DNA of 64,000 bases, from contig NZ_SEMC01000002.1 of the NCBI RefSeq assembly GCF_004153195.1, positions 248,001 to 312,000 of the forward strand, given 5' to 3'. The first letter of the stretch is position 1, and the number at the start of each line of letters is the position of its first letter. Shown in pieces: positions 121 through 61,491 of the stretch. Below the pieces are notes generated by a model, which ran no database searches, was not told where the DNA came from, and saw nothing but the letters and a program-made list of their open reading frames with translations. The position numbers and the translations under genes are program-made. The stretch comes from Sporolactobacillus sp. THM19-2 (GTDB lineage Bacteria > Bacillota > Bacilli > Bacillales > Sporolactobacillaceae).

Positions 121-771
121 TTATTTTTCCGTTACGATTTTAACGCCTGAGCTTGCGCCAATTCTTGTTGCCCCGGCAGCGATCATCGCTTCAGCTTCCT
201 TCCTGGTATGGATACCGCCGGCTGCTTTAACACCCGCGCGTGCCCCGACAGTCCTGCGCATCAGCGCCACATCTTCAACAGTTGCCCCGCCGGTTGAAAA
301 TCCGGTTGAGGTCTTTACATAATCCGCACCGGCCTGAACTGCCAGTCTGCAGGCTTTTTCCTTTTCTTCGCGGGTAAGCAGACACGCTTCAATAATCACT
401 TTGACCAGCACTTTTCCCTTCGCTGCCCGGACAACGGCTTTAATGTCATCAAGGACCCTGTCCTCGCGGCCACTTTTCAGCGCGCCGATATTGATGACCA
501 TGTCAACTTCGTCCGCACCATTCTGCACGGCATCAGTCGTCTCAAACGCTTTCGTCTGAGCCGTTCCCGCCCCAAGCGGGAAGCCGATGACCGTACAGAC
601 ATGGACATCTGATCCGGCAAGCTGTTGTGCTGCAAGGCTGACCCAGTAAGGATTAACACAGACCGAGGCAAAACCGAAGCGTCTGGCCTCCCCGGTCAGT
701 TTCTCAATATCCTTCTCTGTGACATCTGCCTGAAGTGCCGTTTGATCGATATATTTTGCCAGATTCCCCAT
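121..771 (-). CDS. deoC: Deoxyribose-phosphate aldolase
   Basis: DeoC cleaves 2-deoxyribose-5-phosphate to glyceraldehyde-3-phosphate and acetaldehyde in deoxynucleoside catabolism (cytosolic class I aldolase, TIM barrel). The family signature is clear: the [11 protein letters not shown] strand near the middle carries the first catalytic-site lysine, YVKTSTGF carries the Schiff-base lysine, and VKAAGGI follows. Length is about 216 residues, normal for the family. An ATG six codons upstream overlaps the ribosome-binding site AAGGAG, so the start is placed at the ATG nine bases after that site. It is the last gene of a deoB-pdp-deoC group, separated from pdp by about 220 bp of repeated DNA. Confidence 0.95.
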
Positions 772-794
772 CTGAAATCGCTCCTTCAATTGCC

Positions 795-996
795 TTTATC
801 CCACATGAACCGCATGAACGGGCAGGTCCACTTCAGGGTCATGGGAGTAAACAAACATGCCCGGGTGGAGGATCACTGCCCGCAGCAGCCTGATGGGTTG
901 GTTCAACGAACAATCAGTGGCGGATGCGCGCAGGCAAAAAACGAGGGCGTCCTGTGCATCCGAAAAGCCCACTACTTATTGAAATTTCACTTTATT
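795..996 (-). repeat. Structured 3'-UTR intergenic repeat, copy A
   Basis: About 200 bp, read on the minus strand. It starts at the pdp stop codon (GAATAAAGTGAAA...) and fills the pdp-deoC gap. It matches the element at 13804-14003 through shared blocks: AATAAAGTGAAA at the start, TGATTGTTCGTTGAA in the middle, and CCCGTTCATGCGG near the end. It can fold: plus-strand 921-927 pairs with 956-962 (7 bp), flanked outside by 911-920 with about 969-981. The equivalent inner helix of the other full copy has different bases but still pairs. Confidence 0.75.
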
Positions 997-2293
997 CAGT
1001 AATAATCCGGTGAATCAGTGGCGGCTCGGCAGACTCTGGTCCGATCTCAATTGCCTGATAGAGTCCGGCTTTCACCTCATCGATCGTCTCGGTGTCGGTA
1101 TGAATCGTCAGCAGCGCGTCTCCCTTTCGAACCTGATCACCTATTTTCTTATGCAGTACGATGCCGGCATCATAATGAATGGCATCCCCCTTTGCCGCTC
1201 TTCCTGCGCCCAGCTGCATCGCGGCCAGACCGATCCTCTTCGCATGCATCGCTGTGATCCGCCCTGAAGACCGTGCCGGAAGGTCAATCTGGTATTTAGC
1301 AGACGGTAAGAGCTCAGGATGATCGATCACATCAGGATCCCCGCCCTGATTGACGATAAAGCTTCTGAACTTCTCCAGTGCCCGGCCGTTCTTCAGTGAC
1401 GCCTGTAGTCTCCTGCGCGCTTCATCTGCATCTGATGCGGCACCGGCGAGCATGACCATTAAACTGCCCAGTGTCAGAACCAGCTCTTTCAGATCTTCCG
1501 GGCCGCGTCCTTTCAGTGTGTCAATCGCTTCTTTAACTTCCAGCGCATTACCGACTGCAAAACCAAGCGGCTGCGACATGTCTGTAATCACTGCCGCCGT
1601 TTTCTTTCCGACATGCTGCCCGATATGAACCATTGTTTCCGCAAGACGCGCAGCGCCCCTTTCATCTTTCATAAACGCGCCGTTACCCATTGTGACTTCC
1701 AGAACAATGGCATCGGCCCCGGCAGCTATTTTCTTACTCATGATCGAACTTGCGATCAGCGGTACGGACTCAACCGAGCCAGTCACATCACGGAGTGCAT
1801 ACAATTTTTTATCGGCCGGTACAAGGGCACTGCTCTGACCCGTCACGGCAATCCGGTTGTTATTGACCAGTTCGACGAAGCGTTCAGGGGTCAGTTCAAT
1901 ATGAAAACCGGGTATTGATTCGAGTTTATCTATTGTACCCCCTGTAAAACCAAGACCGCGTCCGGTCATTTTAGCCACCGGCACCCCGACTGACGCAACC
2001 AGAGGAGCCAGAACGAGCGTCGTCTTATCACCGACGCCCCCGGTTGAATGCTTATCAACCTTAATACCCTGAATACCGGAGAGATCAACTGTTTCACCGG
2101 AATGAACCATAGCCAGGGTTAAGGCCGCAATCTCTCTGTCTGTCATATCTCTGAAATAGACAGCCATTGTAAAGGCGCTCGCCTGATAATCGGGAATTGT
2201 GCCATTGACATAACCATCAATGAAAAAACGAATCTCCTGCGGTGTCAGTTCATATCCGTCTCTTTTTCTAGTAATGATATCGACCATACGCAT
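992..2293 (-). CDS. pdp: Pyrimidine-nucleoside phosphorylase
   Basis: Phosphorolysis of uridine, thymidine and deoxyuridine to the base and (deoxy)ribose-1-phosphate, which DeoB then converts to the 5-phosphate. The 433-residue length fits the family. The glycosyltransferase-family-3 phosphate-binding signature [18 protein letters not shown] lies near residues 80-97, and the N terminus [13 protein letters not shown] is typical. A GGAG site precedes the ATG. It lies 15 bp after deoB, so the two are co-transcribed. Its TAA stop is the first part of repeat copy A. Confidence 0.95.
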
Positions 2294-2308
2294 GTGATCA
2301 GCTCCGTT

Positions 2309-3502
2309 TCATTTCAGTTCTCCGAGAAAACTGCGACCCGTTTTCGGAAGCGGCACAGCAAAATTTTCAGCTACCGTGGCACCCATATCAGCAAAGGTTT
2401 CCCGGACAGGCAGCGCTGCTCCTTCCGAAAAACGGGGTGAAGTCACAAGAAGCGGGACGTATTCACGTGTATGGTCCGTGCCTCTGAAGCCGGGATCATT
2501 TCCATGATCGGCTGTGATCATCAGCAGATCATCAGGCTGCAGTCTTTCCAGCACATCGCGAAGCTGATGATCAAAGGCTTCAAGTGCTCTGCCGAATAAA
2601 ACAGGTTCCCGGCGATGTCCGTATTTGGCGTCGAAGTCAACAAGATTGGTAAAACTGAGTCCATGAAAATCCTGCTCAAGCACACGTATCAGACGATTCA
2701 TTCCATCTTCATTGCTGACGGTGTGCCAGCCCTTCTTTATCCCGTGCCCGCTGAAAATATCATTAATCTTACCGATAGCGAGCGTATCAACCCCTGCTTC
2801 AAGCAGGCTGTCCAGTACTGTTTTCCCTGACGGCTCCAGCGTCAGATCGCGCCGGTTCGCCGTCCGCTCGAAACGGTCTGCCCGATCACCGATGTACGGC
2901 CTTGCGATCACCCGACCAAGGCGGTACGGTTCATCAATCGTCAGTTTGCGGCTATAAGCACAGATATCATAAAGTTCCTCAAGCGGGATGATATCTTCAT
3001 GTGCGGCAATCTGCAGCACAGAATCTCCCGAGGTGTAAACAATCAGTTCTCCGGTTTTCATCTGACGCTCGCCAAATTTTTTAATAATTTCCGTTCCGCT
3101 TGCCGGTTTGTTCCAGATCACCTTTCTGCCACTGTACTTCTCGATTTTTTTTATCAATTCATCAGGAAATCCATCAGGAAACGTATGCAGAGGAGTCATG
3201 ACGGGCAGCCCCATCATTTCCCAGTGGCCATCCATGCTGTCTTTCCCTGCGGAAACTTCATGCATTTTTGTAAAAAAGGCGACGGGATGCTCCTGAACCG
3301 TTACCCCCCTGATCGGTTTGTCCGGTCGAATGTTGGAGAGTCCCAGCTTCTCCAGCTCAGGGACGTTTAAGCCTCCCATTGCTTCTGCAGTATGCCCCAG
3401 TGTGTCGCAGCCTCTATCGTGATACTTTTCCGCGTCCGATGCTTCGCCAATACCCACCGAATCCAGCACAATAATATGGATCCTTCTGAATTGATCTGCC
3501 AT
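2309..3502 (-). CDS. deoB: Phosphopentomutase
   Basis: Interconverts (deoxy)ribose-1-phosphate and -5-phosphate, linking nucleoside phosphorylase to DeoC or the pentose phosphate pathway. It belongs to the alkaline-phosphatase superfamily with two metals. Metal-binding segments are visible: [10 protein letters not shown] near the N terminus, DGHWEMMG, and [20 protein letters not shown] near the C terminus. The start is placed at the ATG five bases after AGGAGG, giving about 397 residues. An in-frame ATG 14 codons earlier also has an AAGGAG some 12 bases upstream, so a slightly longer product is possible. First gene of the deo group. Confidence 0.95.
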
Positions 3503-3593
3503 ATGTTCCTCCTGTATATGCATCGGGCAGCATGGCCCGATCATTTTATTTTTTCACTCCTTCATATTTTACTCTAACCGGAAAAAAGCCGCA

Positions 3594-3628
3594 AAAAGGC
3601 TCCGGAACTGGCAGGCCCGGAGCCTTTT
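3594..3628 (-). terminator. Intrinsic terminator after the panE-like gene
   Basis: A 12-bp stem AAAAGGCTCCGG/CCGGAGCCTTTT with an 11-base loop, followed on the minus strand by T-rich sequence. It separates the panE-like gene from the deo group. Confidence 0.85.
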
Positions 3629-3634
3629 CATGGA

Positions 3635-4606
3635 TTAACCGGCACTGGCTTTGACAGGATCATCATATTTTCGCGAAGCTTCCTTGAGATGAACAAGATC
3701 AACCAGCATCGAGTGATAAGGCGCTTTCAGTCCATGCTTTTCAGCCAGACGGACAATGGCTCCATTGATGTAATCTACCTCGGTCGGTCTGTTGGTTGAC
3801 ATATCCTGATGCATCGACGGATAATGCAGCGGGTTGGAAACTCTTGAAACATACATGACCTGTTCCACCAGTTCATCCCGCGTCACTTCCAGTTTGATAC
3901 CTTCAGCATCCGTTGCTTCATACGCTTCATAAATCAGCCTTCGGGACATTTCCTCCGCATTCTTATAGGCCGCAAACTGTCCCATCTTAATATTCATTAA
4001 CGTACACAGCGTGTTCACCACAGAATTGAAAACCAGTTTGGTCCAGACGGTCCCCAGATAATCTGTCTTTACAGTCGGATGCATCAGCGCTTTCTCCATT
4101 TCATCGGCCACTTTATAAATAAAGGCATCCGGTTTACCTTCTCTTCTGACGATGTGGACATGACCCGTCCCACGCTTGCCGACAAAGTCCACTTTTCCCG
4201 GTCCCTTCATGACGGTTGCGATCATGGCTGTTCCGGCAATGATCTTTTCCTTGTCCACAAACTGAGCAATATATTCAGCGCCGCCAAAGCCGTTCTGATT
4301 GGTCAGAACATAGGTGTTTTTCCCGATAAAGTGGCGGCAGCGTTCCATCATTTCGACCGTATGCATGTCTTTAATAAAGACAATGGCGAGTTCCGGCGTT
4401 TCGTGGTATTCCTCAGGATAAGAGACTCTGACTGGAACCAGATGGGGGTTTGCTCCGTCTCGGGTAACCACCACACCCCCATTTTTCTTAATGGCTTCAA
4501 CATTTTGTTCCCATGTGTCAACAAACTGGACATCATTCCCTGCTTCCTGCAGCAGGACACCATATCTCAGGCCCATGGCACCCGCTCCAATGACAACAAT
4601 CTTCAT
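3635..4606 (-). CDS. panE: 2-dehydropantoate 2-reductase (ketopantoate reductase) family protein
   Basis: 323 residues. The N-terminal Rossmann fold shows GAGAMG at residues 7-12. Family catalytic positions are present: WTKLVFN with Lys190 (matching the essential Lys of E. coli PanE) and RPTEVDYING with Glu276. PanE reduces ketopantoate to pantoate with NADPH for pantothenate/CoA synthesis. Many Firmicutes carry paralogues acting on other 2-keto acids, so the substrate is not certain, and no panB or panC is nearby. AAGGAG precedes the ATG by 10 bases. The gene stands alone between two terminators and sits behind a structured leader with its own promoter and a terminator just before the start. 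Confidence 0.75.
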   Translation of the reverse strand: MKIVVIGAGAMGLRYGVLLQEAGNDVQFVDTWEQNVEAIKKNGGVVVTRDGANPHLVPVRVSYPEEYHETPELAIVFIKDMHTVEMMERCRHFIGKNTYVLTNQNGFGGAEYIAQFVDKEKIIAGTAMIATVMKGPGKVDFVGKRGTGHVHIVRREGKPDAFIYKVADEMEKALMHPTVKTDYLGTVWTKLVFNSVVNTLCTLMNIKMGQFAAYKNAEEMSRRLIYEAYEATDAEGIKLEVTRDELVEQVMYVSRVSNPLHYPSMHQDMSTNRPTEVDYINGAIVRLAEKHGLKAPYHSMLVDLVHLKEASRKYDDPVKASAG

Positions 4607-4645
4607 TCTGTTTCGTCTCCTTTTTCTTATATTTTTGAGAAAAAT

Positions 4646-4678
4646 AAAGCCCCATCCCGTAACTTTGGATGGGGCTTT
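4646..4678 (-). terminator. Terminator-like hairpin in the leader of the panE-like gene (possible attenuator)
   Basis: A 12-bp stem AAAGCCCCATCC/GGATGGGGCTTT followed on the minus strand by ATTTTT. It lies about 40 bases upstream of the panE-like start codon and downstream of a promoter, so it would stop transcription before the gene unless it is prevented from forming. The 5' arm CCCC could instead pair with the GGGG just before it, next to the outer stem of the upstream structure. Confidence 0.75.
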
Positions 4679-4682
4679 TCGG

Positions 4683-4793
4683 ACCCCGTACAGATGCGAA
4701 CAGGACCCGGCAGAGTATCATCGATTTCAGATGATCTTTGTCAGGTCCTGACTAATCAACAAGACTCGATTTTCGCTTTTTTCTGTACGGAAC
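4683..4793 (-). promoter_or_regulatory. Structured leader RNA, riboswitch-like, before the panE-like gene
   Basis: On the minus strand an 8-bp outer stem CCGTACAG (4783-4790)/CTGTACGG (4686-4693) encloses two things: a small hairpin GCGAAAATCG and a long arm. The arm has a 7-bp helix (4744-4750 with 4701-4707), an asymmetric 8x9 internal loop, and a 6-bp helix ATCATC/GATGAT with a seven-base loop. It is followed directly by an intrinsic terminator. No T-box AGGGTGG motif and no common riboswitch consensus was recognised. The architecture of promoter, closed multi-arm structure and terminator is that of a transcription-attenuating cis-RNA; the ligand is unknown. Confidence 0.55.
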
Positions 4794-4836
4794 ATAACAA
4801 ACATCCCTTGTGAAACAATTTTTAGTGAGTGTTGTT

Positions 4837-4865
4837 ATTTTAACCAGAAAGTAATGGTTTGTCAA
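4837..4865 (-). promoter_or_regulatory. SigA promoter of the panE-like gene
   Basis: TTGACA, a 17-base spacer, then TAAAAT on the minus strand: a near-consensus promoter. It lies right after the ldhD terminator, so the panE-like gene is transcribed independently with a leader of about 220 nt. Confidence 0.8.
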
Positions 4866-4902
4866 TAAAAAAGATTAAGAATATTTGCATGAGCAAAAAA
4901 AC

Positions 4903-4928
4903 GGCTGGACCTGTATTCAGGTCCAGCC
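4903..4928 (-). terminator. Intrinsic terminator of ldhD
   Basis: An 11-bp perfect stem GGCTGGACCTG/CAGGTCCAGCC with a four-base loop, followed on the minus strand by GTTTTTTT. Confidence 0.95.
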
Positions 4929-4947
4929 AGGATTATCCGGATAATTT

Positions 4948-5973
4948 TTATTTTTTCGCAGGTTCAGGAAGCTTGACTTCTGCTCTGCCAAGGTCCCCGC
5001 CGTTGAGTGCCTTGTTAAAGTTATCGTAGCTGGTGGAGATCATGTTGGAAACTGCTTCGTCAGTCATAGCGGCAACATGCGGCGTAATCAGGACTTTCGG
5101 ATACAATTCGACAAGTTCTTTGATCGTTGCGTCGGGGAATGTTTCACCCTTGGAGAAGTCCTTACCGAAGAAACGGGCTTCATCAGTCAGAACGTCTGCA
5201 CCGAATCCTTTCAGTTTGCCGCTCTTGATCGCCTTGACAACAGCCGCTTCATCAACCAGTTCACCACGGGCTGTATTAACCAGAATAGCACCGTCTTTCA
5301 TTTTGCTGATGAAGTCATCGTTAACAAAGTTCTCGTTCTTTCCAGGGAAGTAGGGGAGGTGCAGGCTGACAATATCCGACTCAGCAAGCAGGTCATCCAG
5401 TTCCTTGAATTCAACCAGTTTCTTGGCAAAATCACTCTGGAAAATATCATAGCCCAGCAATTTTGCACCGAGACCCTTGTACAATTCAGCCTCTACGCAA
5501 CCGATGTGGCCTGTGCCGACAATACCGACTGTGCTTTTACGGATTTCGTGGCTGAACATTGTTTCCGTCACTTCGAAATTCAGCTTTGCTGTTCTGCCGG
5601 TTGTATAAACCGTGCTGCGGCTCAGGGATGTCCCGAGCGATACAGCCAGTTCAGCAATAGCGTTCGGAGAATATGCCGGAACGCGGGCAACCACCTGACC
5701 GAAGTCTGCAGCAGCCTGAAGATCAATGTGGTTAAATCCGGCTGTACGTGTGAAAACATATTTAATTCCGAAATCTTTGAATTTCTTCAGGTTTGCACGG
5801 TCAGCCAGGCAGTTAACGAAGAGCAGCACTCCGTCAAAACCCTTTGCGAGATCACCGTTATCAGCAGTCAGAAGATCATTGACCAGTTTTACTTCATAAC
5901 CATATTTGTTCAGTTCACCATACAGGTGTTCTTCGTAAGGTTCAACGCCATACGCAATGATTTTAAAAGCCAT
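4948..5973 (-). CDS. ldhD: D-lactate dehydrogenase
   Basis: NAD-dependent reduction of pyruvate to D-lactate, the terminal fermentative step. The protein has 341 residues of the D-2-hydroxyacid dehydrogenase family. The NAD-binding motif GTGHIG is at 153-158, with Asp176 ending the second strand (NAD preference). The catalytic triad is Arg236 (NTARGE), Glu265 (LTDE) and His299 (TPHVAAMTDEA). The sequence strongly recalls the D-LDH of Sporolactobacillus, the main basis for the organism guess. Monocistronic: own promoters, a Rex-like site upstream and a strong terminator downstream. The start follows a GGGAGG site. Confidence 0.95.
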   Translation of the reverse strand: MAFKIIAYGVEPYEEHLYGELNKYGYEVKLVNDLLTADNGDLAKGFDGVLLFVNCLADRANLKKFKDFGIKYVFTRTAGFNHIDLQAAADFGQVVARVPAYSPNAIAELAVSLGTSLSRSTVYTTGRTAKLNFEVTETMFSHEIRKSTVGIVGTGHIGCVEAELYKGLGAKLLGYDIFQSDFAKKLVEFKELDDLLAESDIVSLHLPYFPGKNENFVNDDFISKMKDGAILVNTARGELVDEAAVVKAIKSGKLKGFGADVLTDEARFFGKDFSKGETFPDATIKELVELYPKVLITPHVAAMTDEAVSNMISTSYDNFNKALNGGDLGRAEVKLPEPAKK

Positions 5974-6060
5974 GCCTAAACATCCTCCCAGAATTTTTAT
6001 TCTTCACCCGACGCTTCTGAGCACCGGGCTGTAAGCACCTTCACCTGTGAAAACCATGCT

Positions 6061-6078
6061 ACGTGATCGCCTTCACAA
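6061..6078 (-). promoter_or_regulatory. Rex-like operator upstream of ldhD
   Basis: Minus strand TTGTGA-N6-TCACGT matches the Rex consensus TTGTGA-N6-TCACAA at 10 of 12 fixed positions. It sits just downstream of a candidate -10 (TATTAA, 6081-6086; -35 TTGGAA, 6103-6108; 16-base spacer), where a repressor would block initiation. Rex is the NADH-sensing repressor of fermentation genes in Firmicutes, so control of ldhD by NADH/NAD is a reasonable inference. Confidence 0.5.
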
Positions 6079-6080
6079 GA

Positions 6081-6108
6081 TTAATAATGAGCCGTCTCTA
6101 CATTCCAA
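6081..6108 (-). promoter_or_regulatory. Proximal candidate promoter of ldhD
   Basis: TTGGAA, 16 bases, TATTAA on the minus strand. A moderate match, made more credible by the Rex-like palindrome immediately downstream. Confidence 0.4.
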
Positions 6109-6188
6109 GACCAGTCAGTATTTACCGGCTGCTTTTATTCTTCTCCAGTAAGGAAAAAAATATCAGAAAGCAACCCTCTACAGTAAAA

Positions 6189-6217
6189 ATTATACCATCG
6201 ACCTTATCAGGCAGCAA
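6189..6217 (-). promoter_or_regulatory. Distal candidate promoter of ldhD
   Basis: TTGCTG, 17 bases, TATAAT on the minus strand, about 215 bases upstream of ldhD. The stretch 5974-6445 holds no gene; it contains the two promoters, the Rex-like site and the terminator of the upstream lipoprotein gene. Confidence 0.6.
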
Positions 6218-6337
6218 TGAATCACAACGGATTAAAAGTGATGTTTTTGTGAAAATCGGGCTGTTTTTTGTCCAGCTAATCCGGCTTCTGAAATAAAATT
6301 TGAAACGATACCAACAGATCCCCTGAGGCATGAACAA

Positions 6338-6362
6338 AAAAAAACACGCCGTTGTGTTTTTA
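6338..6362 (-). terminator. Intrinsic terminator of the lipoprotein gene
   Basis: AAAAACAC/GTGTTTTT stem with a short loop, followed on the minus strand by a run of T. Confidence 0.75.
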
Positions 6363-6445
6363 ATTTGAATCCCATTCCTCTCATTATTAAAATAATGAGT
6401 TTCCTGGAGGTTACGAATAATAAAACATCCGGTGGCGTATGCCGG

Positions 6446-6964
6446 TTAATGGGTCAGTTCCTTATATTCGTTGCTGACAATATCAAGCTTTGTCACCCTG
6501 CCGCTGTCTTTATCGTACCGGAAAAAGCCAATGGAAGGCGCGGTAGAAGGATCTGCAGCAGGGTCATCGGAATGATTTTCCCGGAGTTCAATAGAATAAA
6601 AGGCCCCGTCATCCTGCACTTCCGCATAGACCTGATCCAGTGTATATCCCGCAGCCTGAACAACCGCCTCCAGTGCGTTCTGCTTCTCAGATTTGCCTGA
6701 ACTTGAACTTACCGACTCACCCTCAGATGAGGCAGCCGTTTGCTCTTCAGAGGATGAAGCTTCGGAAGCGGCGGACTGATCCGAAGATGAAGCATCGGAA
6801 GAAGCCGAACGATCCGGAGAGATCCCTTCAGATGAGGAGCTCTTCACCGTGGATGATGTCTGATCGCCGGTGGCAGATTCTCCGTCACGCGTCTGCGTGT
6901 CGGCCGCACAGGCGCTGAGCATCAGCATAGCTGCCGCTGACAGGACAATAATGATTTTTTTCAT
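6446..6964 (-). CDS. Ser-rich secreted lipoprotein of unknown function
   Basis: About 172 residues. A signal peptide MKKIIIVLSAAAMLML ends in the lipobox LSAC, so the mature protein should be a membrane-anchored lipoprotein. Residues of roughly 25-95 are a low-complexity linker dominated by Ser, with Ala, Glu and Asp. The C-terminal 75 residues form a small folded-looking domain (YTLDQVYAEVQDDG ... GFFRYDKDSGRVTKLDIV) that recalls other small Bacillales lipoprotein C termini but is not assigned. The start is the ATG eight bases after GGGAG; an in-frame GTG three codons earlier overlaps that site. It has its own terminator. Confidence 0.75.
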   Translation of the reverse strand: MKKIIIVLSAAAMLMLSACAADTQTRDGESATGDQTSSTVKSSSSEGISPDRSASSDASSSDQSAASEASSSEEQTAASSEGESVSSSSGKSEKQNALEAVVQAAGYTLDQVYAEVQDDGAFYSIELRENHSDDPAADPSTAPSIGFFRYDKDSGRVTKLDIVSNEYKELTH

Positions 6965-6973
6965 AAGAACCAC

Positions 6974-7277
6974 TCCCGTCGGTTAAATAGGATTTCAAGG
7001 CGTTTCGTATCGCGTCCTCTGTGCTGCAGGCAGCCCGGTCAGTATTCCAGTATTCCGGATAACCCGGATAACCGATCTATCAGGAACAGATGACAGCTGT
7101 TTCAGCGCATCTATGTAAAGAGACAGACCCTTGCCTGTGCTCAGGTGATTATCGGATGTGCACCGGCTGAATTGCTCCCCGTCCGCATTTTCCAGAGTAA
7201 ACAAGGTTCTCTTTCAGCAGAACGCCAGTACGCCAAAGAGACGCTTATCTTTTACATCGGCCTGATGCCCCTGATTT
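6974..7277. other. Intergenic stretch with no recognised gene
   Basis: About 300 bp between the lipoprotein and aminotransferase genes. Short open frames exist on both strands, but none has a convincing start site or a recognisable product. Confidence 0.5.
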
Positions 7278-8489
7278 TCAAGCCTGACCGCTCCGTTCCC
7301 GGATCTGCCGATACTCCGCTGCCAGTTTTCTGAACGCGGGAAGCGACCGTCTGACCTTTTCTGTCGACATGCAGTAGGCCATTCGGAAATAACCGGGGCA
7401 TCCGAAGCTGTCCGCCGGAACCAGGATCAGATCATATTTGAGAGCGCGTTTACAAAAAGCAACTGCATCCTCTTCCGGAGCTTTAGGGAACATATAAAAG
7501 GTCCCGCCCGGTTTTACACACGAGAAACCGAGGCCGGTCAGTTCATGATAAAGGATGTTCATGTTGGTTTCATAAACCGACAGGTCGGCAGTCAGATCAG
7601 CCACCTCCGCCACAGCCAGCTGAATAATCGAAGGCGGACAGTTATGGCCGATCCCTCTTGAAATCTGACCGCACATCTCAACGATCAGCTTGGCGTCACG
7701 GCAGGCGGGGTTAACTGCGACATATCCGATCCGCTCCCCCGGAAGCGAGAGTGATTTACTGAATGAGTAACAGGTAATGCTGTTGTGGTAAAATCCGGCC
7801 ACGTAGGGTGCATCAACTCCCTTAAAGACAATCTCCCGGTACGGTTCATCTGAGATCAGGTAAATATCATGGCCATATTCCCTCTCCCTGTCCTCGAGGA
7901 ATGCGGCCAGCTTCTTAATGGTCTCTGTTGAATAGGTGATGCCGGACGGATTGTTCGGTGTATTAATCAGGACAGCCATCACTTTTGATGAGAACATTTT
8001 TTCAAACTCTTCGAAGTTGATCTGAAAAGTCTCGGTATCCGGTGGAACAATCTTCAGAACCGCCCCGGTCTTATTGACATAGGGATTATACTCCGGAAAA
8101 TAGGGGGCGAAGGTGATCACTTCGTCACCGGGGACCGTGACCGCGCGCAGGGCATGAGCAACTGCTCCCGCCGCCCCGGAAGTCATAAAGATATGCTCCT
8201 TCCGATACTCCAGTCCGAAACGTCTCCTTAATGAAGCAGCTATTTTCTCCCGTACTGATGTAATCCCGAGGCTCGGACTGTAGCCGTGTACAGCCACCGG
8301 ATCATGACTCGTCGCCAGTTCCACCAGTTTATCGGTAAAAGCCTGCGGAACCGGTACGGAAGGATTACCGATCGTGTAATCGAAGACATTCTCCCGGCCA
8401 ATCTCTTCTGAGCGCCGCGTTGCGTATTCGGCCAGTTCACGAATAACTGATTTCTTCCCGATCATGGCTTTATATTCCTGATTGATCAT
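7278..8489 (-). CDS. Class I/II PLP-dependent aminotransferase
   Basis: 403 residues, fold-type I aspartate-aminotransferase superfamily. The PLP lysine is in SFSKSLSLPGERIGY. Other family landmarks are GYSPSLG, NTPNNPSG (cofactor/substrate site), SDEPYREIVF (PLP-interacting Asp and Tyr), and FRMAYC with the carboxylate-binding Arg. It most likely transaminates an aspartate- or aromatic-type amino acid; the exact substrate cannot be read from the sequence. GAGGAG lies eight bases before the ATG. It stands alone on the minus strand. Confidence 0.85.
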   Translation of the reverse strand: MINQEYKAMIGKKSVIRELAEYATRRSEEIGRENVFDYTIGNPSVPVPQAFTDKLVELATSHDPVAVHGYSPSLGITSVREKIAASLRRRFGLEYRKEHIFMTSGAAGAVAHALRAVTVPGDEVITFAPYFPEYNPYVNKTGAVLKIVPPDTETFQINFEEFEKMFSSKVMAVLINTPNNPSGITYSTETIKKLAAFLEDREREYGHDIYLISDEPYREIVFKGVDAPYVAGFYHNSITCYSFSKSLSLPGERIGYVAVNPACRDAKLIVEMCGQISRGIGHNCPPSIIQLAVAEVADLTADLSVYETNMNILYHELTGLGFSCVKPGGTFYMFPKAPEEDAVAFCKRALKYDLILVPADSFGCPGYFRMAYCMSTEKVRRSLPAFRKLAAEYRQIRERSGQA

Positions 8490-8594
8490 TTTTTTGTCTC
8501 CTCTGCCCTTTTAATTCGGTTCTTATGCTATTATACCTGTCTTCGGGCAACCCTGGGAAGTCCGCAGCGGATATCTGAGGACAGAGAGGACAGA

Positions 8595-8637
8595 CACGGG
8601 CAGAAAACCCCCACGGATTGAAGTTTCACTTTATTAC
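8595..8637 (-). repeat. 3'-UTR repeat, copy C (short)
   Basis: About 43 bp on the minus strand: AATAAAGTGAAACTTCAATC followed by CGTGGGGG and CTGCCCGTGTC. It corresponds to the first part of copies A and B. It starts three bases after the stop codon of the glycosyltransferase gene 8641-9753, in the same orientation as that gene. The rest of the element is missing or diverged beyond recognition. Confidence 0.6.
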
Positions 8638-8640
8638 AGG

Positions 8641-9753
8641 TTACCGCGAGGGGTGAGGAGGTTGATCAGGAACAGAAAATGGGGTGATTTTTAATATCTC
8701 CCGGTACACATCCGGTAATTCCTTCAGTGTACATCCTGACAACATGTTCATGCTTTTAGCCACCACGTCTGCACCGATAACCGGGACCGTACGGCATGTT
8801 TTTGTAAAATGCGCTTTCTGACTCATCAGCTCGGCGATACGGACCTCCAGATCCCGCGGTGTCATCCGATTGTCGGCCAGACAGATATCCGAACCGGTCA
8901 AATCACGGAGCATCTTGTTTTTCGCTTCACGCTCCTTTGTATCCGCAGGCAGAGCAAGAAGCGGCGTCCCTGTCGAAATACAGTCCATCAGGATGCCCAT
9001 CCCGGGCTTACTGATAACCAGATCCGCCGCATGAATCAAATTCCGTCCGTTAGCGAATAAAGGGGCCCGGACCCTGTCATCATGAAACATAAAGTCCCCG
9101 CCCTCAAGCTGGCCGCCGATCACAATCCGGTACGGCCGCACATGAATCTGATCGATTTTTTTGTACCATTCATTGATGAATTTATATCGGAAACGCCCGG
9201 CTCCCCCGCCCATCTGGATGAGGATAAAAGGCTCGTCTTTCTGAAGACCCAGCCTTTTCTTCACTTCTTCCGGTGATTGAGTAATATCCCGCGCGATGAT
9301 CGGAATCGGCACATAACAGGTGGACAGCTGAGGAACATATTCCGGTTGCAGGATGTTGATGTGGAAAAAGATATCCGTGGATTCCCGGGCAATCCCGCGG
9401 ATCTGTCGTTTGAACTTTCTGGCCTGCTCCGTATCCTCTTCTGAGTCGAAAAGATCACTGTGGTAAACGCCGCCGATAACCGGCCCGGTACCGGTACGTT
9501 CCTTTTTCAGAAAGCGTATTTCATCCCTCCAGTCATGCATGACCAGGCCGGCATTCAGAAGCGTTTCAGCCTTCTTCTGAGGGTTGATATAACGCTCGAT
9601 CTTTCCGTGTGTGAAATTTGAGTGAAGCCATTCATGTGACTTTTTAAAAGCGTAGACGGTTACCGGTTCATCACTGATCTCCGCAAACCGGGCAAGATTA
9701 GCCACACACTTATTCAGATGGCCCAGATTCCGCCCCACAACATAGTGAATCAC
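8641..9753 (-). CDS. GT-B glycosyltransferase, GT28/MurG-like
   Basis: About 370 residues. The N-terminal GT-B half opens with VGRNLGHLNKCVANLARFAE. The C-terminal half has the nucleotide-sugar-binding style of MurG/GT28 proteins: ILIQMGGGAG, then HAADLVISKPGMGILMDC and GTPLLALPADTKERE. It probably transfers a sugar from a UDP-sugar in cytosolic glycan assembly; donor and acceptor are unknown. Upstream in-frame codons overlap the ribosome-binding site GAAGGAG, so the start is placed at the GTG six or seven bases after it. Divergent from the polysaccharide operon starting at 9979. Confidence 0.75.
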   Translation of the reverse strand: MIHYVVGRNLGHLNKCVANLARFAEISDEPVTVYAFKKSHEWLHSNFTHGKIERYINPQKKAETLLNAGLVMHDWRDEIRFLKKERTGTGPVIGGVYHSDLFDSEEDTEQARKFKRQIRGIARESTDIFFHINILQPEYVPQLSTCYVPIPIIARDITQSPEEVKKRLGLQKDEPFILIQMGGGAGRFRYKFINEWYKKIDQIHVRPYRIVIGGQLEGGDFMFHDDRVRAPLFANGRNLIHAADLVISKPGMGILMDCISTGTPLLALPADTKEREAKNKMLRDLTGSDICLADNRMTPRDLEVRIAELMSQKAHFTKTCRTVPVIGADVVAKSMNMLSGCTLKELPDVYREILKITPFSVPDQPPHPSR

Positions 9754-9794
9754 ACCGAACACTCCTTCCTCTGTCAATCTGCTTTTTCTATCCT

Positions 9795-9822
9795 ATGATT
9801 CGTCTCGTCTGATGCATACACT
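9795..9822 (+). promoter_or_regulatory. Possible SigE-type (mother-cell) promoter
   Basis: ATGATT, 14 bases, CATACACT. The -10 agrees with the SigE consensus CATACANT; the -35 is a weaker fit. It would drive the operon 9979-13808, whose last product resembles the spore-coat protein CotSA, which is why a mother-cell promoter is plausible. Confidence 0.3.
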
Positions 9823-9978
9823 TATGGACTGCCGCTCAGAGAAAAATTGCAGGATCAGATGCATCACGGACCTGACGGGGGAACATTTCCGGATGGTCAT
9901 GAATACAGTTATGATGAACTTTCCTGCGTGCACAGAGTTGAAACCAGGCAGGAAAAATTGCGGAAACGGGGGCGGGTT

Positions 9979-10761
9979 ATGCCATTTATTCGTTTAAAAT
10001 GCGGTCTGGATTCCCGGCAATTAGCCGACCGGTTGAAGTATCTGCCGGAGATCATTGAACTTCAGCTGACTGAAGAAGATTTACAGAAGCCGCAGGAATT
10101 GCTGGATACCCTTTTTCAGTTAAAACAGGCGGGGATCAAAGTCTATTTACATCAGCCCGTGACCTGCAGGCAGATCAGGCTGGACATCATGAGCCGGAAT
10201 CCGGAAATCACCAGCTATTATCAGTGGTCATGCAGGCGCCTTGCCGATTTGTGCCGGCGGGCAGACGTTTTATGCGTGATTCATGCACACTACTCCCGAT
10301 CCGAAAGTTCGCTTCTCAGCGGCCGTTCTGCGAGTCGAAACATGAGGACCCGTATTGAAAAGCTGGTTCAGAACGACGGCGACTGTTTTCTCTGGGAGAA
10401 CACAACAGCCGGCCTGTTCTCTTTTGCCAACCCGTATGCCCTCTCCGAAATCATTGAGCCGCTGCATCTCGCACTCTGCCTGGATATCAGCCATGCCTTC
10501 ATTTCTTTAAAAGGGAGCAACCGCAGGCTGAAGCAAGTGACAGAACAAGTCGAGAAGCAGGTGCGTTACTTCCACCTTGTCGACAGTGCAGGCAAACGAC
10601 ATGATGCCCTGCCGCTGGGCAAGGGAAAAATTGACTGGATCAATCTGAAACCTCTTTTGATACACAAAGATTTTATCTTTGAAATCGGCTTAAAAGATAA
10701 CAATGACTGCCGGCCGATGATTGAAAGTGCACAGTATTTCAGCCGTTTACCTTCTGCCTGA
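9979..10761 (+). CDS. TIM-barrel sugar phosphate isomerase/epimerase-like protein
   Basis: About 260 residues, AP-endonuclease-2/xylose-isomerase-like TIM barrel. Segments that carry metal-binding residues in this superfamily are visible in order: VIHAHYS, FLWENTT, LCLDISHAF, RYFHLVDSAG, RHDALPLGKG and FIFEIG. The chemistry cannot be decided from sequence; sugar epimerisation or isomerisation is the family norm. The start is the ATG after a G-rich site (GGGGGCGGG) rather than an upstream ATG lacking one. It leads a run of glycosyltransferase genes, so a role in making or trimming an unusual sugar is inferred. Confidence 0.65.
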   Translation: MPFIRLKCGLDSRQLADRLKYLPEIIELQLTEEDLQKPQELLDTLFQLKQAGIKVYLHQPVTCRQIRLDIMSRNPEITSYYQWSCRRLADLCRRADVLCVIHAHYSRSESSLLSGRSASRNMRTRIEKLVQNDGDCFLWENTTAGLFSFANPYALSEIIEPLHLALCLDISHAFISLKGSNRRLKQVTEQVEKQVRYFHLVDSAGKRHDALPLGKGKIDWINLKPLLIHKDFIFEIGLKDNNDCRPMIESAQYFSRLPSA

Positions 10762-10805
10762 CTGGCGACATGCGATGCAAAAAATACGGAAAGTGGTGAT
10801 ATCCC

Positions 10806-11909
10806 GTGCGCAAGGTAGCCGTCATACGGAACTGGTTCTTACCCATCAGTGAGACATTTATCTATTCAGAATTAATTGATTTGAAAACCTACACGTCGGT
10901 GGTCTGCTGCAAGAAAGAAATGAATCGGAAAAATTTCCCTTTTGATCCGGTTTTCATCTACAGGACGACAGATGAATTAAAAGAGATCCTCGCAAGAGAA
11001 CAGGTCGATCTGATTCACGCACGGTTCGGTGTAACGGGAGCCGAGCTGCTGGATATCCGGCAGGAACTGGACATCCCTGTACTGACTTCATTCCATGGCT
11101 TTGATCTGCCGACGAATGTCCGATCGATGGAAAAGTATGATGGACGTCTGGAGCAGCTGTTTTCCGAAGGGGATGCCTTTACGGCAACCTCAAATAACAT
11201 GAAAAAGATTCTGGTGAAGTACGGGTGCCCGAAACAGAAAATACACGTTCATCACAGTGGCATTAACATCAAACAATTTCCATTCCGGCATACCCCCGTC
11301 CCCATAGATGGATCGATCACCCTCCTTTCTGTCGGACGGCTTGTGAAAAAAAAGGGGATGAAGTACCTGATCGAAGCCTTCCAGAAGGTGCATCGCGAGT
11401 TCCCTGGCACCAGACTGCGCATTGTCGGCGATGGCAAGCTGCGTTCCGATCTGGAAAATCTGGTCAAAGGACTCAAATTAGAACATGCCGTTACTTTTTC
11501 GGGTGCTCTGTCATATGAAGATATTGTCAGGGAAATGCAACAAGCCCACTTGTTTGCACTGGCCAGCACCAGAACACCTGATGGAAATCAGGAAGGGATA
11601 CCCAATGTATTAAAGGAAGCCATGGCATCCGGACTGCCTGTCGTCTCAACAAAGCATGCGGGCATTCCCGAACTGGTAAGAAACAGAGAATCCGGGATTC
11701 TTGTCCCTGAAAAAGACCCGGATGCGCTTGCCGAATCACTGATCTGGCTGATCCGTCACCCGGACCGGTGGCGTAAGATGGCAAAAAAAGGAAGAAAGAC
11801 GGTAAAGCGGCAGTTCAATGCCGAGCGCCAGATCGACGAACTTGAACGCATTTATGATTCTGTTCTTGAAAAAGGGAACATGCAGGGAAAGGAGCGCACC
11901 GATGACTGA
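10806..11909 (+). CDS. Glycosyltransferase family 4 (GT-B)
   Basis: 367 residues. The C-terminal Glycos_transf_1 domain has SVGRLVKKKGMKYLIEAF (donor-binding loop), RIVGDGKLRSDL, and the EX7E region EGIPNVLKEAMASGLPVVST (about residues 260-280). This is a retaining transferase using a nucleotide sugar, acting in the cytosol on a growing glycan. The likely start is GTG with a weak upstream site. It follows the TIM-barrel gene by 45 bp and overlaps the next gene by 8 bp, so the four genes form one operon. Confidence 0.85.
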   Translation: MRKVAVIRNWFLPISETFIYSELIDLKTYTSVVCCKKEMNRKNFPFDPVFIYRTTDELKEILAREQVDLIHARFGVTGAELLDIRQELDIPVLTSFHGFDLPTNVRSMEKYDGRLEQLFSEGDAFTATSNNMKKILVKYGCPKQKIHVHHSGINIKQFPFRHTPVPIDGSITLLSVGRLVKKKGMKYLIEAFQKVHREFPGTRLRIVGDGKLRSDLENLVKGLKLEHAVTFSGALSYEDIVREMQQAHLFALASTRTPDGNQEGIPNVLKEAMASGLPVVSTKHAGIPELVRNRESGILVPEKDPDALAESLIWLIRHPDRWRKMAKKGRKTVKRQFNAERQIDELERIYDSVLEKGNMQGKERTDD

Positions 11910-12660
11910 AATCAGTGTCATCATCCCAACTTATAACCGCGGAGCTTTTACTGTCGCGGCAGTGAAAAGCGTATTAGCCCAGTCTTACAGCGATTATGAG
12001 ATTATTGTGGTAGATGACGGCTCAACAGACGATACCCGTGATCTGTTAAAAGCTTTTGGAGATAAAATTCGCTACATTTATCAGGAAAATAAAGGGCCTT
12101 CTGCTGCACGGAATGCCGGGATCCGTCTCGCCAGAGGCAACTATATCGCCCTCTGTGATTCCGACGACCGGTTCCTGCCGGATAAACTGGAAAAACAGAT
12201 GGCCTTCATTCACGAACACCCTGAGTGCCGTTTTCTTTACAGCTGGTACTATAATGTCAATGAAAAAGGCAAAAGAACCAAGCTGCGTAAACCCCTTACC
12301 TGTAAAAGCCGGGAGCATCTGCAGTATTGCCTTTTTTCACGTAAATTTACCATCCGGACATCGACACTGCTGGTTCATAAAGCCTGCTTTGACAAAGCCG
12401 GACTGTTCAATGAAGACTACTGGTATTCCCAGGACTGGGATATGTGGCTGCGGCTTGCTGAGTATTACCGCGGTTACTGTCTTGAAGAACCTTTGTGTGA
12501 ATACTGGCTTCACGGTGAGAACCGAAGCAGTCTGAGCATCCGGATCCACCATCCGGAAATACGGGATCATACCCTGGCATTATATGGCTGGGACGATAAG
12601 CGTCTGATCGAACTGGACAAAAAATACGGGAAGAAAAAAAGTAAGGGGAAAGCGCGATGA
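11902..12660 (+). CDS. Glycosyltransferase family 2 (GT-A)
   Basis: 252 residues. Starts MTEISVIIPTYNRG with IIVVDDGSTDDT and the DXD-type motif CDSDDRF; NKGPSAARNAGI is typical of GT2. Later SQDWDMWLRLAEYY is the catalytic-base region. An inverting transferase, probably adding a sugar to a lipid-linked or surface glycan. The start ATG overlaps the end of the preceding gene and has AAGGAG upstream. Its stop overlaps the next start (ATGA), so translation is coupled. Confidence 0.88.
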   Translation: MTEISVIIPTYNRGAFTVAAVKSVLAQSYSDYEIIVVDDGSTDDTRDLLKAFGDKIRYIYQENKGPSAARNAGIRLARGNYIALCDSDDRFLPDKLEKQMAFIHEHPECRFLYSWYYNVNEKGKRTKLRKPLTCKSREHLQYCLFSRKFTIRTSTLLVHKACFDKAGLFNEDYWYSQDWDMWLRLAEYYRGYCLEEPLCEYWLHGENRSSLSIRIHHPEIRDHTLALYGWDDKRLIELDKKYGKKKSKGKAR

Positions 12661-13808
12661 AGATCGCCTTCATCTGTTCCGACCGGGGGCCGTGTCCACC
12701 GGTTAAAGGGGGAGCCATCCAGCTTCTGATTTCAAAGATTGCTCCGCTGATTGCCCGATCTCACGATGTGACCGTGTTTTCCATTACCGATCCGGCACTC
12801 CCTGTCCATGAAAAGTCCGGCGGAGTGACCTGGATCCGCTTTGACCGGTCTGTTTTTTTTCCGCACGTCTGTGAAAGCATCAGAGCTGGGGCATTCGATC
12901 TGATCCAGGTTTATAACCGTCCCGGGTGGCTCGCTGAACTTCGCCAGGCTGCGCCTGATGCCCGGCTTTTCCTGTCTCTGCATAATCTGATTTACGACAC
13001 GCTGAAAATGGATCGTCACCTTGCGGCAGGCTGTTTGCAGGAAGCCGATCAGGTGCTGACTGTCAGCCGGTTTGTTGCTGAGGATACGGTCGCGAAATTC
13101 CCCGGACTTGAAGAAAAAACACATGTCCTTTATACAGGGGTGGATACAAACGAGTATGCACCTGTATGGTCTGAGAAAGGGAAGGAATGGCGGAACCAGA
13201 TCCGGGCGCGTTATCAGATCGCCGGTGATGAACGGGTACTGCTCTTCGTCGGAAGACTGGTATCTGAGAAGGGCTGCCACCTGATTCTGGAAGCCATGAA
13301 GGAACTCTCTGAAACATCCGGCCGGGTCAGATTACTCATCGTCGGAAGTAAATGGTATGCGGACGATGCACCGAGCGGCTATATTGAGAAACTGAAACAG
13401 GCAGCCGATGAACTCGAGGAGCGAGTGGTCTTCACATCCTATGTTCCTGTTGAGGAAATTCCGAAATATTTTGCCGCATCAGATATCTTTATTTGTCCCT
13501 CCCAGTGGAAGGAACCGCTCGCACGCGTACACTATGAAGCGATGGCTGCCGGCCTGCCCGTCGTCACCACCGCACGCGGGGGAAATCCGGAATTATTTCT
13601 GAACGATGGAGCTGCAAAGATCATCAGGCGTTATAAGGATCCCCGAGCCTTCGCACAGGTGCTGAACCCGCTGCTGGCCGATCCGGATCTGGCCGATCAA
13701 ATGGGCCGGGCCGGAAGATCAAAAGTGGAAGAAATCTATAATTTTCAGCGGGTCGCAGATGAACTGGAAACCTTGTATCAGACTGTTACGAAAGTGGCTG
13801 AGAAATAA
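12657..13808 (+). CDS. CotSA-like glycosyltransferase family 4, probable spore coat protein
   Basis: 383 residues. The N terminus MKIAFICSDRGPCPPVKGGA, the QVYNRPGW segment, FLSLHN, LYTGVDTNEYAPVW, FVGRLVSEKG and SQWKEPLARVHYEAMAAG closely follow the plan of B. subtilis CotSA/YtcC. CotSA is a spore-coat-associated glycosyltransferase. With GalU, UDP-glucose dehydrogenase and epimerase genes next door, a role in spore-coat or surface polysaccharide synthesis is likely. Last gene of the operon; its TAA stop is the first part of repeat copy B. Confidence 0.8.
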   Translation: MKIAFICSDRGPCPPVKGGAIQLLISKIAPLIARSHDVTVFSITDPALPVHEKSGGVTWIRFDRSVFFPHVCESIRAGAFDLIQVYNRPGWLAELRQAAPDARLFLSLHNLIYDTLKMDRHLAAGCLQEADQVLTVSRFVAEDTVAKFPGLEEKTHVLYTGVDTNEYAPVWSEKGKEWRNQIRARYQIAGDERVLLFVGRLVSEKGCHLILEAMKELSETSGRVRLLIVGSKWYADDAPSGYIEKLKQAADELEERVVFTSYVPVEEIPKYFAASDIFICPSQWKEPLARVHYEAMAAGLPVVTTARGGNPELFLNDGAAKIIRRYKDPRAFAQVLNPLLADPDLADQMGRAGRSKVEEIYNFQRVADELETLYQTVTKVAEK

Positions 13809-14003
13809 AGTGAAACGTCAATCAGTGGGGGGGTTATGGACGCAGGACGTGCCCGTGCAGGCGTTGCGACAGGGCGTCCTCACTTTCAGCCGGCGTCATC
13901 CCCGCTGATTGTTCGTTGAATCCATCGGGCTTCTGCGACCCAGGCCTGTTCGCTCATCCCCACGACCCTGAGAGAGGGTACGCCCGTTCATGCGGGATAA
14001 ACC
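13804..14003 (+). repeat. Structured 3'-UTR intergenic repeat, copy B
   Basis: About 200 bp beginning inside the stop codon of the CotSA-like gene (AAATAAAGTGAAAC). Homologous to copy A over its length. A 12-bp helix 13819-13830/13900-13911 (one G-U pair) encloses a second helix 13839-13843/13893-13897. A second domain follows with CGGGC/GCCCG and a small CCCTGAGAGAGGG hairpin. Base changes in the inner helix relative to copy A keep the pairing, which suggests selection for an RNA fold. Confidence 0.75.
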
Positions 14004-14011
14004 GAATAAGG

Positions 14012-14043
14012 AAAAACGGATCCGCACCCGGAACCGTTTTTTG
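14012..14043 (+). terminator. Intrinsic terminator of the glycosyltransferase operon
   Basis: AAACGGATCCG/CGGAACCGTTTT stem (one mismatch) with a short loop, followed by TTTT. It lies directly after repeat copy B. Confidence 0.7.
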
Positions 14044-14134
14044 TTTTATAAATTTTTGCGGAAAACAGCATCAGAAAAACTAAGCCTCTGGCGGCGCTGC
14101 GATCTGCCGGCCGGAAAAGCTTTTTTTCAATCAA

Positions 14135-38997: not shown

Positions 38998-39192
38998 ATG
39001 AATAGACGGAAAAATTCCACTTACTCGGTAATTAAATTTATGAATAACTAAAATAGGCGGAGAGATTCCGCCTATTGACTAGAGAAACGGGATAAAGGAG
39101 CTTTTTGCCTGGCCTAATCGGAAAAGTTCTGCTTATCTCCCCTCCGAAAAGCGTGCCGTTCTGCCCCTAACCGGAAAGTATCCGCTTATTTT
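38998..39192 (-). repeat. Four-palindrome intergenic element, copy 2 (inverted relative to copy 1)
   Basis: Palindromic units start at about 39002, 39053, 39114 and 39167 (steps 51, 61, 53), the best being AATAGGCGGAGAGATTCCGC at 39052-39071, which continues CTATT. The reverse complement aligns along its length with 20630-20825, with the same unit order and spacing. Part of a gene-free stretch 38710-39951. Confidence 0.7.
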
Positions 39193-41258: not shown

Positions 41259-41311
41259 GGAACATTGCTGACCGGCAAACCGCAGACGCCGCCAGAGGAT
41301 TCGTTTTTCTG
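41256..41311 (+). repeat. Short post-stop repeat, copy 2
   Basis: Begins at the stop codon of the DUF420 gene: TAAGGAACATTGCTGACCGG, then CAAACCGCAGACGCCGCCAG and TTTTTCT. About three quarters of positions match 38707-38763. Confidence 0.5.
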
Positions 41312-41320
41312 ATACTTTAA

Positions 41321-53192: not shown

Positions 53193-53271
53193 TTTGACAC
53201 CACCCTTTTACGGCCGCCTTTTATCTATTTCGGCTGCACAGCTTTGAATTCCTTCCGGCAATTAACCCCAA

Positions 53272-53287
53272 TGTTTCACGTGAAACA
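53272..53287. promoter_or_regulatory. parS site 2 (between noc and rsmG)
   Basis: TGTTTCACGTGAAACA, an exact consensus palindrome in the 95-bp noc-rsmG gap, ending one base before the rsmG stop codon. Confidence 0.97.
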
Positions 53288-59565: not shown

Positions 59566-59901
59566 TGTGGATAATTATTTCTCCTCCTTCGATTTTTTTC
59601 ACGTTTTATCGACATGTACCTAACAAATTACCAGGCTGTGTACAACGCCCATGTGCAAAAGTTATTCACTGTGGATAACTTTTGGCGATCATTGCTTTAT
59701 CGGTGCTTTTTTGATATGATCATAGTACTTGAATCCGTCGAAAAGTCCGTTAATGCACAGATTTATCCACTGCCTGTGGATAAATCTTCAAGACGTTTAG
59801 CACAGATGTTAGTTGTTTTATCCACAGGTTGTTAACATCTGTTGATAACTTCAATCTGTTCGACAAAATACGCATTTTTCAACTGCACATTTTGTGGATA
59901 A
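59566..59901. promoter_or_regulatory. oriC part 1: DnaA boxes upstream of dnaA
   Basis: Consensus or near-consensus boxes: TGTGGATAA at 59566, 59670, 59775 and 59893; TTATCCACA at 59818; TTATTCACT at 59662, TTATCCACT at 59763 and TGTTGATAA at 59840. Several form head-to-head pairs. They flank the dnaA promoter, giving DnaA autoregulation as in B. subtilis. The rpmH-dnaA gap (640 bp) has no gene. Confidence 0.92.
59692..59720 (+). promoter_or_regulatory. SigA promoter of dnaA
   Basis: TTGCTT, 17 bases, TATGAT, lying between DnaA-box pairs at 59662-59678 and 59763-59783, so box occupancy should repress it. Confidence 0.65.
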
Positions 59902-61459: not shown

Positions 61460-61491
61460 CTTGCGGATGGGGTACCAGTCATACACAGGAC

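Follow-up and report, generated by a model that had tools for sequence, protein, structure and literature searches.

Small ATAAA-bounded repeats in Sporolactobacillus sp. THM19-2 and other Bacillales: a probable non-autonomous mobile element, with Bacillaceae-1-like modules nested in some copies

In a 64,000-nt stretch of the genome of Sporolactobacillus sp. THM19-2 (assembly GCF_004153195.1, contig NZ_SEMC01000002.1, positions 248,001 to 312,000; hereafter the window, whose positions are used below), three related repeats lie at or near the stop codons of genes. A preliminary description, made from the letters alone, read them as a structured repeat family of 3' untranslated regions (3' UTRs) and proposed either a role at the RNA level, such as protection of mRNA 3' ends, or a structured element that spreads. 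The question raised by this locus is therefore what kind of sequence begins at stop codons and why it does so. Based on our data, the repeats are, with a probability of about 0.83, copies of a small non-autonomous mobile element with ATAAA as its fixed target. All three sequences were located where that description had placed them, two of them being full-length (copies A and B) and the one near 8.6 kb a stub. The genome-wide search that it had called for was made with a covariance model (CM) trained on 38 other copies, A and B being excluded (model R1), and the model recovered both copy B (expectation value E 9e-18) and copy A (E 6e-12). Intact copies elsewhere score up to 185.6 bits, the top ones belonging to the training set.

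The unit has a fixed length of about 157 bp, asymmetric ends and two conserved hairpins, and it starts and ends with ATAAA. Read from the left, the order is ATAAA, GTGAAACTT, hairpin I (CAATCAGTGGGGG...CCCCCACTGATTG), TTAGTTGAAC, CAATCGGGC, hairpin II (ACGGGCAGT...CCCAC...GTGGG...ACTGCCCGT), TAATGCGGG and a final ATAAA. Among the 163 copies with both ends, 78 fall in the length bin of 150-159 bp. The right 5-mer is ATAAA in 143 of the 160 copies matched to the last model position, and the left one in 217 of the 224 matched from the first; the left figure is biased, the patterns used to collect most of the loci having contained the left ATAAA, and the right figure less so. Beyond ATAAA there is hardly any consensus in 114 copies, apart from a weak purine preference one base upstream. 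Tandem copies share one ATAAA, and two tandem dimers of the window's genome are single copies in the conspecific genome G429. Minimal forms of 51-54 bp, in which the left end is joined straight to the right end, were seen at eight loci (L079, L080, L113, L114, L118, L129, L141, L156); they look as if the G-run of hairpin I had recombined with that of hairpin II.

The distribution of the element within the genus is uneven. At E<=0.001, with at most 150 candidates scored per genome, the model matched 66 places in the window's genome (at least one of them an antisense echo) and 73 in G429 (several echoes), and none in any of the 13 other species of the genus (13/13), in which a strict pattern likewise gave no match. 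At E<=0.01 the counts were 69 in the window's genome, 74 in G429, 109 in Terrilactibacillus sp. S3-3 (G017; CP129291.1), 111 in genome G019 and 118 in G175. Such a distribution, 66 matches against none in 13 sister species, speaks for an invasion within one genus, and an enzyme that mobilised the element should therefore be findable by comparison. Over the class, a blastn search with one copy (two candidates scored per genome) found matches in 34 of 398 genomes and 21 of 145 genera, and a pattern scan of named Bacillales gave at least 119 loci under at least 18 genus names. Among the matches listed these names include Bacillus, Cytobacillus, Niallia, Peribacillus, Neobacillus, Lysinibacillus, Sporosarcina, Psychrobacillus, Oceanobacillus, Ornithinibacillus, Virgibacillus, Lentibacillus, Natronobacillus, Cerasibacillus, Paucisalibacillus, Fredinandcohnia, Terrilactibacillus and Paenibacillus sp. 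(two records so labelled).

Sites without the element were found in the sister species. The joined flanks of one copy (L014) align unbroken through the junction in 12 congeners, and the empty site of one of them (G002) keeps a single AATAAACC, that is, one ATAAA. The site of copy A is empty in all five congeners aligned (G010, G009, G012, G011 and G005), where the end of the phosphorylase gene is followed by deoC. As to possible vehicles, a diverged copy (L016) had no match at E<=1e-5 in 50,697 phage records, and an exact 21-mer of the element had none in viral contigs. Among plasmids, L016 matched one record; an intact copy matched four at 1e-5 and, in a blastn search of 72,556 plasmids, six at E<=10. 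A plasmid labelled Klebsiella grimontii carries a stretch of this Bacillales element (L392; CP079755.1:221561-221652), possibly as a result of a mislabelled or mixed assembly, or of transfer.

The preliminary description had given the copies the direction of the preceding gene, and this orientation bias disappeared in the larger sample. Around 266 distinct copies in 203 loci, with open reading frames (ORFs) of at least 90 aa called longest first, the element is sense to the 3' end of the upstream gene in 120 cases and antisense to the 3' end of the downstream gene in 116 (p 0.85). The same holds when the sample is divided: 26 sense against 19 antisense among the 47 copies of the window's genome (p 0.37), 11 against 5 among 18 in Terrilactibacillus sp. 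S3-3 (p 0.21) and 83 against 92 among the 201 copies of the remaining genomes (p 0.55). Divergent genes flank 38 of the 266. A 3'-UTR function that depends on orientation was rejected on the count of 120 to 116. The proposed start at stop codons fared better. In 20 of 234 intact left ends a stop TAA lies inside the left ATAAA (offset -4), compared with 63 of the 1967 non-coding ATAAA sites present in the same loci (Fisher 3e-4); the corresponding figures for the window's genome and Terrilactibacillus sp. S3-3 together are 9/46 and 8/282 (1e-4), and for offsets -4 to +10 from the stop 41/234 and 122/1967 (3e-8). The excess is thus real, but in large part the coincidence is built in, because the target ATAAA itself contains TAA. 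The residual excess could include genes truncated by insertion. The stop at copy A, as far as the sequences of relatives can tell, looks natural, since G009 and G010 end their phosphorylase at the same codon without the element (by eye).

Compensatory change, which had been noticed between copies A and B, is supported at the level of the family. In 112 aligned copies 35 of 38 pairs are changed on both sides, compared with 13.7 (standard deviation 2.3) in shuffles, none of 500 of which did as well; standard pairs fill 93.7% of the pair cells, and the covariation score is 0.187, compared with no more than 0.036 for slid partners. Some antisense echoes are included in this alignment, which was fitted to the structure; in a MAFFT alignment of 38 copies, not fitted to structure, double changes were found in 19 of 38 pairs. 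G-U cells outnumber A-C cells by 84 to 14, or by 46 to 14 after one invariant U-G pair is dropped, a count with some bias, since RNAalifold allows G-U pairs in choosing the structure. The excess points to the plus strand as the folding one, whether in RNA or in single-stranded DNA. The intact copy tested, which comes from Neobacillus, folds far better than its shuffles (z -7.75, 0/200 as stable), whereas copies A (z -1.02, 28/200) and B (z -0.38, 70/200) are no more stable than their dinucleotide shuffles. The inner helices described earlier, GGAUGC/GCAUCC in A and GACGC/GCGUC in B, do appear in the minimum-energy folds, but they sit in the extra sequence of the hairpin I loop and therefore say little about the whole 200-bp unit. 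The structure is conserved across the family, and not visibly in copies A and B.

How such an element might move can be sketched as follows. An enzyme acting in trans would recognise the hairpin ends and insert the element at ATAAA; the DNA inserted might be a folded single strand, in the manner of IS200/IS605-type (HUH) elements. Surviving copies would then lie between genes, in 3' UTRs and in the spacers of operons; a copy would start at a stop wherever the ATAAA overlapped a gene's TAA, and its transcription would be incidental. As the route, a single-strand mechanism that recognises hairpins seems to us the likeliest, with a chance of roughly one in three. REP/RAYT elements and palindromic elements derived from IS200/IS605 have subterminal hairpins, no inverted terminal repeats and a fixed short target, and they are non-autonomous. 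The present element shares with them the fixed short target, the hairpins near both ends and the lack of inverted terminal repeats; it differs in its longer unit, in an inconsistent preference for one replication strand and in that no Y1 transposase was recognised beside the copies. REPs and RAYTs are treated in PMC3733652. One Y1_Tnp match was found in the window's genome, an IS605-like remnant, around which the ends of the element were not seen by eye. A composite transposon with an enzyme of its own was considered and set aside; a single pair of ends, at L118, had the spacing of 300-5000 bp looked for.

Several results weigh against a mobile element of this kind. At the other 11 of the 12 empty L014 sites no clear ATAAA was found by alignment, and in G010 (L264) the flanks of L014 align apart, with some 120 other bases between them and no CM match there; these bases are perhaps another repeat. 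No fresh insertion was seen between the two conspecific genomes, all eight queried sites being filled in both. Among 994 ORFs within 2 kb of copies, no transposase was recognised by eye, with no family library, in the 14 largest clusters, a survey that a rare or unclustered transposase could escape. With respect to the replication fork, 22 copies are oriented with it and 50 against it in G175 (p 0.0013), as opposed to 23 and 24 in G429 (matches of at least 60 bits, copies near origin and terminus left out); uniform insertion into the lagging strand is inconsistent with these counts, which do not fit one single-strand route. To these points have to be added the bias in the G-U count and two features of the stop codons: the excess at offset -4 is not significant outside the window's genome and Terrilactibacillus sp. 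S3-3 (11/188 against 55/1685, p 0.09), and the overall excess is larger than the supply of ATAAA alone predicts.

Among known repeats the closest kind, as judged from published descriptions, is bcr1 of the Bacillus cereus group. These describe bcr1 as non-coding, intergenic, foldable and mobile, with a TTTAT motif, a length of 147-167 bp and 11 to 130 copies per genome (PMC6542083, PMC2267715, PMC3446304). With bcr1 and the group A BCR repeats (bcr1-bcr3) the present repeats have in common the motif (TTTAT being ATAAA reversed), the length given for bcr1, the foldability, the intergenic multicopy habit and the mobile behaviour. On these grounds (PMC6542083, PMC2267715) our copies may even be bcr1 proper, a repeat of the B. 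cereus group present in other Bacillales, an identity that we consider possible but rather doubtful. The present element occurs outside the B. cereus group, as the records are labelled, under all the genus names counted above, and includes composites with a nested Rfam module, while the first BCR element was described as restricted to that group (PMC6542083); moreover, plasmid-borne bcr1 copies are on record (PMC6542083), yet none of the six plasmid matches carried a B. cereus group label. Among the genomes of the class no member of the B. cereus group was recognised: G194 was rejected for its G+C of 43.6% over 400 kb, and a marker for the exosporium leader gave 0/398 but is uninformative, as it gave no signal in controls. 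A classical miniature inverted-repeat transposable element (MITE), which would have terminal inverted repeats, duplicate its target and be mobilised by the DDE transposase of an insertion sequence, would account for a short non-coding unit with ATAAA as a direct repeat at both ends and for the single ATAAA of an empty site (G002 only). We nevertheless find this origin very unlikely, given that the two ends, GTGAAACTTC and CCCGCATTAA read inward, do not form inverted repeats (by eye, alignment A1) and that nearly every end counted has the same 5 bp, unlike an ordinary target duplication. No insertion sequence with a DDE transposase and these ends was recognised by eye in the 14 largest ORF clusters beside the copies. 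What the copies in the window represent is, in our preferred reading, a mobile element that is bcr1-like in kind, and a type of repeat for which the B. cereus group had been described as the sole host would thus extend to many genera of Bacillales.

Other repeats bear a more distant likeness. Pneumococcal BOX elements are modular mobile hairpin repeats made of combinable parts; by description they resemble the present element in their modular build, and they belong to an unrelated host group. The stem-loop repeats Bant-1 (72 bp, B. anthracis) and Bhal-1 (74 bp, B. halodurans) tabulated in PMC2267715 are hairpin repeats found between genes in Bacillus and similar in length to the nested module dealt with below, and on the basis of their description they could be earlier accounts of a related hairpin repeat. 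As judged by titles and the beginnings of abstracts, that paper was the only relevant one on such repeats outside the B. cereus group in the open-licence literature searched, in which none of six short strings of the element was found.

The comparison with Rfam proposed in the preliminary description revealed that the insert of copy B resembles RF01690 (Bacillaceae-1) on the opposite strand. Within the window no match attains the gathering score of the family (35 bits), the inserts of both A and B falling below it, and of eight loci given from the window's genome a single one does so (L020, 36.5 bits). In other genomes the score is reached by 6/6 loci of Terrilactibacillus sp. S3-3 (80.7 bits in L060), 6/6 of G175, 4/6 of G019 (L050, L374, L375, L377) and 0/4 of G429, and by six of ten further loci, among them L132 with 85.0 bits. 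In five of these six the module lies inside the carrier by coordinates (L132, L164, L069, L121, L120). A separate locus, L225, also passes, in a carrier-like context judged by eye only; with it, 8 of the 15 loci in the set from the window's genome and Terrilactibacillus sp. S3-3 reach the score, as do 10 of the 16 from G175, G019 and G429. The module is something within the element and not the element itself. Three arrangements of it were read by eye. It can sit in the hairpin I loop, AGGAY then being on the plus strand of the carrier (window's genome, G019, L120, L132). Elsewhere it lies between the two hairpins, either with AGGAY likewise on the plus strand (Terrilactibacillus sp. S3-3, L069 and L132 again) or reversed (G175, L164, L121). 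In L132 (727-1004; Bacillus sp. FJAT-29937) there seem to be two such modules, the first placed in the loop of hairpin I and the second between the hairpins, and the second alone reaches the gathering score.

RF01690 itself is found at E<=0.01 in 27 of 38 relatives, with up to 99 matches in one genome (G019, 99 candidates scored), and its loci L214-L243 include tandem arrays and copies beside 16S rRNA genes (by eye). Since the family is a high-copy interspersed repeat, its label as a small RNA (sRNA) gene is doubtful. In the literature Bacillaceae-1 appears among abundant sRNAs (PMC9029176), eight were counted in B. subtilis (PMC8208703), and passages from four papers do not describe it as mobile. 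We tentatively propose that the bcr1-like carrier has repeatedly captured a Bacillaceae-1 module, in the three arrangements, that the composites may have spread between genera, and that Bacillaceae-1 may be a mobile DNA module whose AGGAY hairpins would scatter CsrA sites where they are transcribed; on present evidence this is a possibility with the odds against it. A curated sRNA family may then be a mobile repeat module, which, if true, would affect sRNA annotation across the group.

Two explanations put the function of the repeats in RNA. One sees a functional 3'-UTR element, protecting mRNA 3' ends or regulating the message and kept at stop codons in the orientation of the gene. The strong covariation and the excess of left ends at stops agree with it, and about half of the bcr copies of B. 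cereus (84/165 and 62/155) were found transcribed in UTRs and operons (PMC3446304). The even orientation counts, the copies between divergent genes and the absence from all 13 sister species argue otherwise, and in the same study only bcr3 correlated with mRNA decay (PMC3446304). Protection of mRNA 3' ends gains no positive support from copies A and B either, whose folding stability has been lost and the first of which separates a gene pair that is free of the element in five congeners. We therefore judge such a function very improbable and retain from the early proposal its other half, the spreading structured element. The other explanation holds that the composite spreads CsrA-binding sites in mRNAs by way of its nested Bacillaceae-1 hairpins, with AGGAY loops on the plus strand. 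The reverse complement of Bacillaceae-1 was proposed to bind CsrA (PMC4333381), and AGGAY is on the carrier's plus strand in L020, in 6/6 loci of Terrilactibacillus sp. S3-3 and in the four passing loci of G019. The module is reversed, however, in all six G175 copies tested, in Lentibacillus (L121) and in Sporosarcina (L164), an orientation hard to reconcile with a fixed CsrA role for it within the carrier, and several copies of the window's genome have AGGGC for AGGAY in the second loop (by eye). All 38 relatives carry csrA, a fact that does not discriminate because the 11 genomes without RF01690 matches carry it too. A role of the composite in distributing CsrA sites seems to us, all told, highly improbable. 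In Terrilactibacillus sp. S3-3 the csrA match is split into two parts that overlap (C1:2788600-2788760), as a frameshift or an assembly error would give.

The features of the window related to the repeats are collected in the table. Copy A is followed by deoC and is letter-identical in G429; the extra sequence in its hairpin I loop looks, by eye, like a shorter form related to the Bacillaceae-1-like inserts found elsewhere in the family. Copy B lies between its glycosyltransferase gene and a convergent nucleotidyltransferase gene, and is also present in G429 with an internal length difference. The left-end fragment begins 6 nt beyond the stop of ORF 8641-9777, is found in G429 too and had no CM match at any E up to 1.

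Features of the window associated with the repeats (positions 1 to 64,000)
Feature	Position	Strand	Evidence
Copy A, full-length diverged two-hairpin element	795..995	minus	ATAAA at 995-991 and 799-795; CM 53.0 bits
Extra sequence in hairpin I loop of copy A	922..961	minus	GGATGC...GCATCC helix
Left-end fragment of the element, about 35 nt	8600..8634	minus	28.7 bits, E 8e-7, nucleotide hidden Markov model
Copy B, full-length diverged element	13805..14001	plus	ATAAA at both ends; CM 75.4 bits
RF01690-like insert in hairpin I of copy B	13839..13904	minus	25.6 bits, E 0.011; gathering score 35
Pyrimidine-nucleoside phosphorylase gene	992..2293	minus	TAA stop inside left ATAAA of copy A
deoC, downstream of copy A	121..789	minus	follows the phosphorylase gene in five congeners
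Glycosyltransferase gene	12657..13808	plus	TAA stop inside left ATAAA of copy B
Terminator-like inverted repeat and T-run, right after copy B	14017..14044	plus	by eye

A terminator pattern scan gave one site on the plus strand, at 13891-13907 within the element, and one on the minus strand (14030-14017), and not the plus-strand structure read by eye after copy B. A weak CM match on the minus strand at 38998-39075 (12.8 bits, E 0.19) covers hairpin II alone and is probably due to chance. After copy B there is a second small dispersed repeat (AGCATCAGAAAAACTAAGCCTCTGGCGGCG...), present at 14067-14096 and 41287-41316 as a 90% inverted pair, whose letters match several further places in the window's genome. 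Further along, two 20-nt copies at 50724-50743 and 53271-53290, 100% complementary to each other, contain the palindrome TGTTTCACGTGAAACA, which we take to be the parS consensus, and three TTTTATCCACA-type repeats at 59604-61541 resemble DnaA boxes. Together with the switch of GC skew in G429 between 0.66 and 0.83 Mb, these DnaA-box-like repeats suggest that the replication origin lies within the window.

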